This document shows positions 8,858 to 58,321 of a DNA stretch of 64,000 nt, in pieces. The notes under the pieces are model-generated. The model did no database searches. It was given only the letters and a program-made list of their open reading frames with translations, and was not told the DNA's origin. The position numbers and the translations under genes were made by a program. Origin of the DNA: Brachybacterium nesterenkovii (GTDB lineage Bacteria; Actinomycetota; Actinomycetes; Actinomycetales; Dermabacteraceae); the NCBI RefSeq assembly GCF_900163655.1, contig NZ_FWFG01000048.1:1-64000 (forward strand), read 5' to 3'. Position 1 is the stretch's first letter; every line of letters starts with the position of its first letter.

Positions 8858-11194
8858 ATGACCGCCACCGGCACCCGCCCCGACGCCGCTCCCGCAACAG
8901 ACCCGGGAACCCGCCGCGTCGACCTCGACATCTCCGGCATGACCTGCGCGTCCTGCGTGGCCCGCGTCGAGAAGAAGCTGCGCCGCGAGGGCGCCGCCGA
9001 GGCCGCCGTGAACCTCGCGCTCGAGCGGGCGACGGTGCTGGTGCCCGCGGACGGCCCGAGCGACGAGCAGCTCGTCGCGGCCGTCGAGAAGGGCGGGTAC
9101 GGGGCGCGCGTGCGCTCGGCAGCGGCGCCGGGATCCGCGCTCGAGGACGCGGTCGGCGCGACCGACGGCTCCGAGCTGGACCGGCATGAGGCCGATCAGC
9201 GCGAGGCCCTGCACCGCACGCTCGTCTCGGCCGCTCTCAGCGTGCCGATCGTGCTGGTGTCGATGGTCCCGCCGCTCCAGTTCCCGGGATGGCAGTGGGC
9301 GGCCCTGGCGCTCGCGACCCCCGTCGTCCTCTGGTGCGCCTGGCCCTTCCACCGCGCCGCGGCGATCAACCTGCGCCACGGCACCACCACGATGGACACG
9401 CTCGTCTCGCTCGGCGTGAGCGCCGCCTACCTGTGGTCGCTGTGGGCGCTCCTGTTCGGCGGCGCGGGCCGCATCGGCATGACGATGGACTTCTCGCTGA
9501 CACCGGCGATGCACGGCGGCCACCACGAGATCTACCTCGAGTCGGCCGCCGTCGTGACCACGCTGATCCTCCTGGGGCGCTGGGCCCAGGCCCGTGCCGT
9601 CCACCGCTCCTCCGCGGCGCTGCGCGCGCTCCTCGACCTCGGGGCCAAGGAGGCGACGGTGCTCGAGCTGGGACCCGACGGCCGCACCCTCGAGCGGACG
9701 GTCCCGGTGGGCGAGCTGCGCACGGGGGACGTGTTCGTGGTGCGCCCCGGGGAGAAGATCGCGACCGACGGCGTGGTCGTCACCGGGTCCAGCGCCGTGG
9801 ACCGCTCGATGCTGACCGGCGAGTCCGTGCCCGAGGAGGTCTCCGCGGGCGACGAGGTCGCCGGTGCCACCGTCAACGCGCACGGCCGCCTCGAGGTCCG
9901 CGCCACCCGTGTCGGGGCCGACACGCAGCTCGCGCACATCGCGCGCCTCGTCGAGCACGCCCAGACGTCGAAGGCTCCCGTCCAGCACCTCGTGGACCGC
10001 ATCAGCGGCATCTTCGTGCCCGTCGTCATCGCGCTGTCGCTGCTGACGCTGGCCGGCTGGCTGCTGACCGGGCACGGCGCCGAGCAGGCGTTCACCGCGG
10101 CCGTGGCCGTGCTGATCATCGCCTGCCCCTGCGCCCTGGGGCTCGCGACGCCCACCGCGATCATGGTGGGCACCGGGCGCGGCGCCGAGCTGGGCGTGCT
10201 GATCCGCTCGGCCGAGGCGCTCGAGGCCAGCCGGGCCATCCGCACGATCGTGCTCGACAAGACGGGCACGCTCACCACCGGCGCGATGACGCTGCGTGAT
10301 GTCGCGGTCGCTCCCGGTGCCGATCGGGCCGAGATCCTCGCCCTGGCCGCCGCCGTCGAGCGCGGCAGCGAGCACCCGATCGCCCGCGCCGTCGTCGGCG
10401 CGGCCGAGTCCGAGGCGGATGCGGCCGCTCTCCTGCAGACCCTGACGGCGGAGGGCACGGCGGCCCGCGCGGGCTCGGGCGTCAGCGCGACGGTGGCCAC
10501 GCCGGGTCGCGCGGCCCGCGAGGTCACCGTGCGCCGCATCGAGGCCGACGACGTGCTGGACGACGCCGTCGCCGCGGCGGCGGCGCGCTCCGGCGACGAG
10601 GGCGCGACCGTCTCCGCCGTGGTCGTCGACGGTGCGGTGCTCGGAGTCCTGGCGCTCGGCGACGCGATCCGCCCCGAGAGCGCAGGCGCCCTCGCCGCGC
10701 TCCGCCGCCTGGGCATCCGCCCCGTCCTCGCCACGGGCGATGCCGCCCCGGCCGCGTGGCACGTGGCCCGGGCGCTCGGTATCGACGAGGTCCACGCCGG
10801 GGTGTCCCCCGAGGACAAGCTGCGGCTCGTGGAGGCCCTGCAGGCCGAGGGCGCCGGCGGCGTCGCGATGGCCGGCGACGGCATCAACGACACGGCGGCT
10901 CTCGCTGCGGCCGACCTCGGGATCGCGATGGGGACGGGCACCGACGCGGCGATGGCCAGCGGCGACATGGTCGTTTCCGACGGCTCGATCGCCACGATCC
11001 CGACGGCCATCCGCCTGGCCCGCGCCACGCTCCGCACGATCCGCTGGAACCTGTTCTGGGCGTTCATCTACAACGTGGTCGCGATCCCCCTGGCGATGGC
11101 CGGGTGGCTGGGCCCCCTCATCGCCGGAGCGGCGATGGCGTTCTCGAGCGTCTTCGTGGTCACGAACTCCCTGCGCCTGCGCCGCTTCCGCTGA
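8858..11194 (+). CDS. copA: CopA, Cu(I)-exporting P1B-type ATPase
   Basis: A 778-residue heavy-metal P-type ATPase that pumps Cu(I) out of the cytoplasm. One N-terminal HMA domain has MTCASC at residues 28-33. The intramembrane metal site CPC is at about 423-425, the phosphorylated Asp is D467 in DKTGT, the HP motif of the nucleotide domain appears as SEHPIA, and the hinge GDGIND begins near 673. The last two helices carry YN and MxxSS signatures that define the Cu(I) subgroup. Start ATG 8858 follows GGAG. It forms a unit with copZ behind the CsoR-like operator. Confidence 0.95.
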
Positions 11195-55711: not shown

Positions 55712-55795
55712 GCGGGAGATCTCCTGTGGGCGGATGCGAAGCGGATGGGGCGGAGGAAGGGCGGGGCGCTGGCCGGGAGCGGCCGGCACCGGGGC

Positions 55796-55861
55796 GGATC
55801 AGAGCTCTCGGATCAGAGCTCTCGGATCAGGGCTCTCGGGGCAGCGCTCTCGGATCAGCAG
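55796..55861. repeat. 14-bp tandem repeat, four to five copies
   Basis: Units GGATCAGAGCTCTC start at 55796 and 55810 (identical), 55824 (one change) and 55838 (more changed), with a partial unit at 55852. The array lies between the rmlB stop and the rmlC-rmlD start. Each unit contains a self-complementary AGAGCTCT core, so each could form a small palindrome. Confidence 0.88.
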
Positions 55862-55903: not shown

Positions 55904-56944
<1,041 letters not shown>

Positions 56945-57025
56945 CTAGTCGAGGGACGGCGGCACGGCCCGCCCGCCCGGCCGCACCCCAGGGCGCCGCG
57001 GCGGGGCCCGATGGGCCCCGGTGGC

Positions 57026-57093
57026 AGAACTGGTAGCCATGGGTGCAGACGCTCCCTCTGGAGGGCTCGTCTTCCTGCATGACTACCAGTTCT
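57026..57093. repeat. Hairpin element, copy 1 (between rmlB and the DUF559 gene)
   Basis: An imperfect palindrome of 68 bases. The outer stem AGAACTGGTAG (57026-57036) pairs perfectly with 57083-57093; CATG and AGACG segments pair further in; the tip is CCCTC-TG-GAGGG (57054-57065). The left arm matches copy 2 at 23 of the first 26 bases. It lies 120 bases upstream of the rmlB start and 140 bases before the DUF559 gene start. Confidence 0.88.
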
Positions 57094-57232
57094 TGCAGCG
57101 CCTCCGCCCACCCGCAAAGCCATGACGCACGGCGGACCGGATCGCGGCCCCGTCTTTCCCGCACATGCAGAGTTCTCCACAGCCGAGCGCTCGGCGGGAG
57201 ACACCAGAGCGCGCGACGGCGAGGCTCCCGAC

Positions 57233-58289
57233 ATGCACTCAGCCAGCACCCTTCGCATCCCTGCGGATGCGATCCCCACACCGAGGCCCCGTCGGGCTCC
57301 AGGATCACCGCATCTGTCTCCTGAGGTATCCGGCATCTGGGACCGTCGCTCCCTGCTCCGCAGCGGGTTCACAGACGCCGAGGTCAGGTCGCAGCTCCGG
57401 CTCGGCAGACTCGTTCCCGCCGGGCGCGGGAGGTACGCGAGCGGAAGCGCGGACCCGCGCGCTGCGGGCGCTTCGCGCTGGCTATCGTCCGACCTGCGTC
57501 GACGCCGCGTTCGCCCACAAGCTGTGGATCCCCGACGGCGCTCGAGATCAAAGGGCCCACGTCTATCGCAAGCGCGACGCTGGTCCCGCCCCGCGGTGGG
57601 CCGCCCCCCATAGACCGTGGCTCACCTCGTGGCCCGAGGCGGATCCGATCGCATCAGTGCCGGTGCTCCTCGCCCATGCTCTGCGCTGCCAGGAGCCCGA
57701 GACGACTGCCATCCTGATGGAGTCGGCGCTGCATCAGGGTCTGATCCTCCCCGACGACCTCATGTCCCTGATCCACGAAGCTCCCGTCGCCGCCCGACGC
57801 ACCTTCCACAGCCTCTCGACGGCCAGCGAGTCCGGCTCGGAGACACGCGTGGTGCGCTGGCTGCGGCACCGCGGCTTCCAGGTCGAGCAGCAGGTCTTCA
57901 TCGAGGAGGTCGGCTACGTCGATGCCTATGCAGGCGGAGTGGTCCTGGAGATGGATGGGCGTACGTATCACAGCTCTCCGGAAGCCTTCGCCGAGGATCG
58001 CCGACGCGATCTCGTCATGCGGCGACTCGGCCTCCAACCGATTCGCCTGAGCTACGGACAGATCTGGCACGACTGGCGGCGCACCCGTGTCGGCACTGCT
58101 CGACGCTATCACCGAAGCGGGGGCCACGGGCCGCAGGGCGTTCGAGCGAGCAACGACAGTCTGAACCGAGAACATCGCGCGGGCAGCGTATCCAGCTGGC
58201 CCGGCTCTACGTTGCGAGAACTGGTAGCCATACATGCAGACGGGTCCCGCAGAACGGGTGTCTGCACGTATAGCTACCAGTTCTCGTAG
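57233..58289 (+). pseudogene. Frameshifted AbiEi-like/DUF559 nuclease-like gene
   Basis: The N-terminal part (from ATG 57233) has the winged-helix pattern common in AbiEi-like proteins: WDRRSLLRSGFTDAEVRSQL, then RLVPAGRGRYA. The frame shifts by a net one base at about 57440-57444, and the homologous sequence continues in another frame as ARTRALRALRAGYRPTCVDAA. The C-terminal part is DUF559/Vsr-like, with SGSETRVVRWLRHRGF, VLEMDGRTYH and EDRRRDLVMRRLG, which include the metal-site Asp and charged residues of the fold. The second frame then runs through hairpin copy 2 and stops inside it. G+C looks lower than in the neighbouring genes. A sequencing error or programmed shift could also explain it. 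Confidence 0.72.
58215..58286. repeat. Hairpin element, copy 2 (3' end of the DUF559 gene)
   Basis: A 72-base near-perfect palindrome. Positions 58215-58241 pair with 58260-58286 at 25 of 27 positions, and the tip is CCCG-CAGAA-CGGG (58246-58258). The outer arms are close to those of copy 1, while the apical stem is of different sequence. It lies between the DUF559 gene and the convergent rmlA gene, and covers the last codons of the open frame. Confidence 0.92.
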
Positions 58290-58321
58290 CCCGCCGGGCA
58301 GGCGCTCGAACGCCCGGCCCG

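Follow-up and report, generated by a model that had tools for sequence, protein, structure and literature searches.

Two long hairpins enclose a single nuclease-like gene between rmlB and rmlA of Brachybacterium nesterenkovii. Do these hairpins belong to the gene between them, and if so, what kind of unit do they form? Within the window, by which we mean the whole 64,000-nucleotide stretch of DNA analysed here, the features of the locus are as follows.

55904..56920, minus strand: rmlB, flanking gene, given for context only
57020..57099, no strand assigned: hairpin 1 of family 1, stem 57026-57093 plus a CTG-like/CAG foot, 5' of the nuclease gene, 79.1 bits
57233..58164, plus strand: nuclease gene, N-terminal AbiEi-like winged helix and C-terminal Vsr/EDxHD-type (PF18741) domain
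58211..58290, no strand assigned: hairpin 2 of family 1, stem 58217-58284, 80.2 bits
58322..59206, minus strand: rmlA, flanking gene, given for context only

Both hairpins reported in a preliminary description of this DNA proved real, with folds much stabler than those of shuffled sequences (z -4 to -5 and -9), and the second stem was corrected from 58215-58286 to 58217-58284. Each stem is 68 nt long, or about 80 nt including the outer CTG-NN / NN-CAG foot. The nuclease start codon comes 140 bp after hairpin 1; hairpin 2 follows the gene at about 50 bp and has the end of rmlA about 36 bp away. Their left arms are identical at 23 of 26 positions, as had been described, the sole difference being GGG/ACA. 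An Rfam search of the window returned a single tRNA and nothing else, and phage and plasmid collections gave no match to the hairpin DNA. In most relatives rmlB and rmlA lie close together without a hairpin-nuclease unit; among the loci examined, the unit occurs between them only in B. nesterenkovii and genome G012. The rmlB-rmlA spacer of another genome, G007, is short and holds two other long palindromes (L070:2726-2781 and 2824-2885), and there is no nuclease gene between rmlB and rmlA. The window also contains a short tandem array at 55795-55858 (4.6 copies of a 14-nt unit, CGGATCAGAGCTCT), located between an rmlC/D-like gene and rmlB.

We collected 60 solitary PF18741 nuclease loci of Brachybacterium with about 10 kb of flank each. 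Long palindromes cluster in two bins, -1200 to -700 and +180 to +600 relative to the nuclease domain. These two flank bins hold 64 of the 100 long palindromes at the 60 loci, with an expected fraction of 0.046 (binomial p about 2e-59, which overstates certainty because the loci are partly orthologous and hence not independent). Palindrome density reaches 1.07-1.27 per kb in the flank bins versus 0.02-0.05 in most other bins, and control loci (a helicase with the same domain, and rmlB) stay at the background of about 0.04-0.05 per kb. Under a less strict threshold, 34 of the 60 loci have a palindrome on each side; some have no or only weak hairpins, six having none even at the lowest threshold. 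Hairpin similarity has a median of 0.67 within a locus versus 0.14 between loci, and the true partner ranked first in 30 of 34 cases. The two hairpins of one locus belong together. A chance association was also considered, as the other B. nesterenkovii nucleases lack a family 1 hairpin, and was rejected: other hairpin families are found there.

The bracket is not confined to Brachybacterium. A scan of 84,980 species gave 51 nuclease loci in other genera, with flank-bin densities of 0.69-1.02 palindromes per kb versus mostly 0.02-0.08 elsewhere. A flank palindrome is present at 30 of these loci, while 21 have none or only a weak one; 13 loci carry one on each side, and most of these pairs are alike. 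Two-sided brackets were found in Desertihabitans, Mobiluncus, Janibacter, Enemella, Tessaracoccus, Salinibacterium and Arcanobacterium, and also in Propionibacteriaceae; the bracket is present in Gordonia as well. Among DUF559 loci drawn from the class, it occurs in some (L277, L291, L297) and is absent from most. The hairpin-nuclease module first suggested from a single locus is thus backed far beyond it, since brackets with hairpins matched locus by locus recur in the genus and also in further actinobacterial families. A 4.9-kb scaffold deposited as a bacteriophage (L322, MT839994.1) carries the same nuclease type with hairpins like those of genome G004 (L163); it looks like a fragment of a Brachybacterium chromosome rather than a phage.

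The nuclease gene in the window, whose stop is read at 58162-58164, is probably a pseudogene, because it reads in two frames against its G012 orthologue. Residues 1-83 of the orthologue correspond to 57233-57478; a different frame, at 57447-58130, supplies the match to residues 74-301 and places a frameshift near 57447-57478. A second one probably lies near 58085-58110. The G012 orthologue is intact (314-326 aa) and also sits between rmlB and rmlA, in the opposite orientation and with one adjoining hairpin. The gene had been described as an AbiEi-like N-terminus joined to a DUF559 C-terminus; the AbiEi-like winged helix stands, and the direct Pfam match of the C-terminus is to REase_MTES_1575 (PF18741), a relative of DUF559. 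Across the family, PF18741 is matched by 30 of 30 members and DUF559 by 20 of 30. The N-terminal region matches AbiEi_4/AbiEi models, and its similarity to the AbiEi antitoxin structure 6y8q (Foldseek E about 1e-3) is where the N-terminal fold match rests, as VIA-align structure matches cover mainly the nuclease domain. The predicted structure of the nuclease (mean pLDDT 86.5) resembles I-Bth0305I (3r3p; Z 12.8, rmsd 2.4 over 95 residues), NGO0050 (Z 11.3) and Vsr (1vsr; Z 10.2). Residues of catalytic type, E205, E241, H248 and D257, are invariant in 30 sequences, D232 nearly so, and dN/dS values of 0.23-0.35 in four pairs indicate purifying selection. These two observations indicate that the family is maintained as a protein, most likely an enzyme. 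Two enzyme subgroups, of ECDS and EYDG type, are both bracketed; ECDS-type hairpins are mostly 55-95 nt and EYDG-type hairpins mostly 44-69 nt long, several of the latter having a CTTCC-N6-GGAAG apex.

Are the bracketing hairpins the only ones of their kind in a genome? The genome-wide covariance-model search proposed in the preliminary description was run with a model built from the first 14 copies, and it found 18 strong copies of family 1 in the B. nesterenkovii genome (65-96 bits, all about 80 nt, near-perfect palindromes) and two weak matches; this and the other copy numbers given here are counts from searches of the genome. Two of the 18 lie in the window, which as first stated holds no further copy, and 16 elsewhere. 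The arms are conserved, and the apex varies while still pairing, as had been noticed in the first two copies: two-sided changes affect 18 of 37 pairs over the 18 copies versus 12.9 +/- 1.5 in shuffles, none of 500 of which reached that value. The arms could also owe their symmetry to template switching at palindromes instead of selection. Family 1 ends in a symmetric CTG-NN/NN-CAG foot, and other families end otherwise. Because the enzyme gene is frameshifted, the 18 hairpins of family 1 are probably a relic population.

Dispersed copies occur in the same genome for all three bracket families searched genome-wide. Besides family 1, these are the one that brackets the C21 nuclease of B. nesterenkovii, which has about 11 copies in that genome, and a bracket family of Gordonia alkaliphila with about 10. 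The C21 bracket reads as follows.

L134:8785-8867 and 10777-10857: C21 bracket hairpins, third B. nesterenkovii family, CGTCCAGAA...TTCTGGACG

Both B. nesterenkovii families tested have one enzyme gene each. At distances of 2-10 kb from other nucleases there are several lone hairpins that match one of the bracket hairpins in their own genome. Among 38 genomes of the genus, family 1 is restricted to B. nesterenkovii, and G012 has a related ten-copy family; outside the rml locus we saw no hairpin site common to these two genomes.

Further palindromes were seen along the way. A second B. nesterenkovii family (TGGGAAG...CTTCCCA; L067:5166-5240, L025:66-142, L175:9065-9141) is represented by lone copies and by one copy 5' of the C27 nuclease. 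Gordonia alkaliphila has three hairpin copies in a row at about 0.5 kb spacing, 3' of its nuclease (L254:8645-9772). In genome G017, a 2.6-kb insertion absent from its close relative G006 (L140:12662-15243 vs L141) holds a palindrome repeated elsewhere in G017. Two B. nesterenkovii contigs start with a long near-perfect palindrome (L066:1-84 and L019:1-73); the assembly may therefore be prone to breaks or fold-backs at hairpins and could lack some copies.

The hairpins might be operator sites. AbiEi antitoxins bind inverted repeats in their own promoter, and an AbiEi-like winged helix could likewise bind the palindrome as duplex and control its own gene, the dispersed copies being a regulon or decoys. 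The N-terminal matches to AbiEi_4/AbiEi models and to 6y8q are in line with this, as is the place of hairpin 1 ahead of the start codon. However, the 3' hairpin is at least as regular as the 5' one, and autoregulation leaves unexplained both the long extrudable stem, with its free but pairing apex, and the conserved nuclease active site. We consider this explanation unlikely.

Alternatively, both hairpins and the gene might move together as one autonomous element, similar to an insertion sequence or to a free-standing homing gene, and lone hairpins would be its relics or targets. The kinship to the homing endonuclease I-Bth0305I would suit such an element, and so would the rmlB-rmlA unit, present only in B. 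nesterenkovii and G012 and inverted between the two. Against it, synteny over about 12-16 kb is seen at two nuclease loci, in nine genomes for the first and ten for the second, the nuclease copies within one genome are diverged rather than recent, and paired hairpins occur in both direct and inverted orientation. We found neither a clean empty site nor a target duplication: lone hairpins aligned to syntenic relatives gave only broad unaligned spacers, because the relatives are too diverged between genes. In the closest pair, G017 and G006, an orthologous lone hairpin has its stem changed on both arms and there is no presence/absence difference. The enzyme gene appears mostly vertically inherited. 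With two ancestral loci of such wide synteny, movement of the unit as a whole is improbable, and that suggestion of the preliminary description lacks clear support here, as does its comparison with MITEs. Set against the corresponding locus of eight other genomes (L183 vs L137 and seven others), G012 has an inverted segment that comprises the nuclease and one further gene. Inversion through the hairpins was rejected, only one breakpoint being near a hairpin.

The syntenic loci also reveal how the hairpins change. Their flanks are 78-81% identical and the nucleases 70-71%, and the hairpins are unlike between genomes, with the pair staying alike within most genomes where both hairpins were found. 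Turnover of this kind, with the pairs still matched, would be expected if a recogniser and its site co-evolved; the two bracket copies might also be held alike in part through gene conversion between them.

A role in defence, with the nuclease directed at foreign DNA and the hairpins serving as marks of self or as sensors of invading single strands, seems to us decidedly improbable: AbiEi is known from abortive infection and the domain has relatives in anti-phage proteins (PDC-S37, Hhe), but these two matches are domain-level only and the nuclease genes are solitary, without a partner. Least credible are ordinary transcription terminators or insulators at gene ends. Where gene context was read, family 1 copies do lie between genes, often directly after stop codons or between convergent genes; yet none of the 18 has a T-run beside it on either strand (at most two T per 8-nt window), and the locus-specific matched pairs and the sharp tie to one gene family would go unexplained. 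The preliminary description had held that arms at gene ends away from DUF559 genes would speak against a module. Sixteen of the 18 copies are of this kind; they do not dissolve the association with the nuclease, because a REP-like family predicts such copies.

The arrangement is best compared with REPtrons, where a TnpA_REP (RAYT) gene has REPs of its own type on its flanks, REPs are also scattered through the genome and inheritance of the gene is mainly vertical, in general with one full-length enzyme gene per repeat family and co-evolution of enzyme and repeat (PMC6006769; PMC3733652). Our loci likewise have an enzyme gene flanked by cognate palindromes, the same repeat dispersed between genes (18 copies in one family, about 11 and about 10 in the two others), mostly vertical inheritance, and enzyme and repeat co-evolving as judged from hairpin turnover at syntenic loci. 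The REP/REPIN comparison made at the outset was therefore right as a likeness, borne out by this turnover, by the scattered cognate copies and by the single enzyme gene of each of the two B. nesterenkovii families tested. REPtrons rely on an HUH Y1 transposase, whereas our loci encode a Vsr/EDxHD-type nuclease carrying an AbiEi-like winged helix, and the palindromes here span 45-95 nt without a constant GTAG or CGTC foot; atypical REP subclasses lacking that foot do exist (PMC6006769). Copy number here, set against REPtrons, is about ten to twenty per family in the three families counted. A Y1/RAYT transposase (PF01797) is absent from all 38 Brachybacterium genomes, and the profile was detected in control genomes. 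Because the genus has no Y1 transposase and the hairpins no usual REP foot, these are not REPtrons.

Other relatives share parts of the system. The catalytic fold and the key acidic and His residues are those of I-Bth0305I, other EDxHD homing endonucleases, Vsr and NGO0050; unlike these, the gene is free-standing, was not seen in an intron or intein, is fused to a winged helix and is bracketed by hairpins. The N-terminal winged-helix region is shared with the AbiEi antitoxins of the type IV toxin-antitoxin system AbiE. Unlike in AbiE, no AbiEii toxin gene adjoins at the window locus, where one gene lies between the hairpins and rmlB and rmlA are the neighbours, and a nuclease domain is fused instead. 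The nuclease belongs to the PF18741 REase_MTES_1575 / PF04480 DUF559 superfamily, described by domain only, MTES_1575 as a Vsr-type domain within a large helicase protein that has multiple domains (PMC3710099). We found no account of such nuclease genes with flanking hairpins in the open-access papers searched. The system lacks two defining features of REPtrons, its only known look-alike, with which it has the arrangement alone and no homologous part in common.

We put forward, with confidence and doubt in about equal measure, a REPtron-like module in which a winged-helix plus Vsr/EDxHD nuclease has its own family of long palindromes. The single-copy nuclease gene would recognise one palindrome family (45-95 nt, with a family-specific stem), two members of which bracket the gene while others are dispersed between genes of the same genome. 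From this arrangement we infer that the enzyme binds, cleaves and actively spreads its hairpins. The N-terminal winged helix, the nuclease domain or both would bind the cognate stem as an extruded hairpin, cruciform or duplex, and the nuclease would nick or cut at or beside it. Repair would then copy hairpins to new sites and keep the bracketing copies alike, and enzyme and hairpin would change together. A little more tentatively, we suggest that actinobacteria possess an enzyme-repeat system in which EDxHD/Vsr plus winged-helix enzymes propagate or depend on their own hairpins and change along with them, a non-HUH counterpart of REPtrons.

These results connect a widespread family without an assigned role, the AbiEi-DUF559/MTES_1575 proteins, to a particular DNA partner and provide an enzyme for a set of palindromes in actinobacteria. 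If the enzyme acts on its hairpins, REP-like systems would have arisen at least twice, from unrelated nucleases. A second system would then be at hand for asking why such enzymes are retained by bacteria, along with many cognate enzyme-hairpin pairs for studying how the DNA specificity of a nuclease changes.
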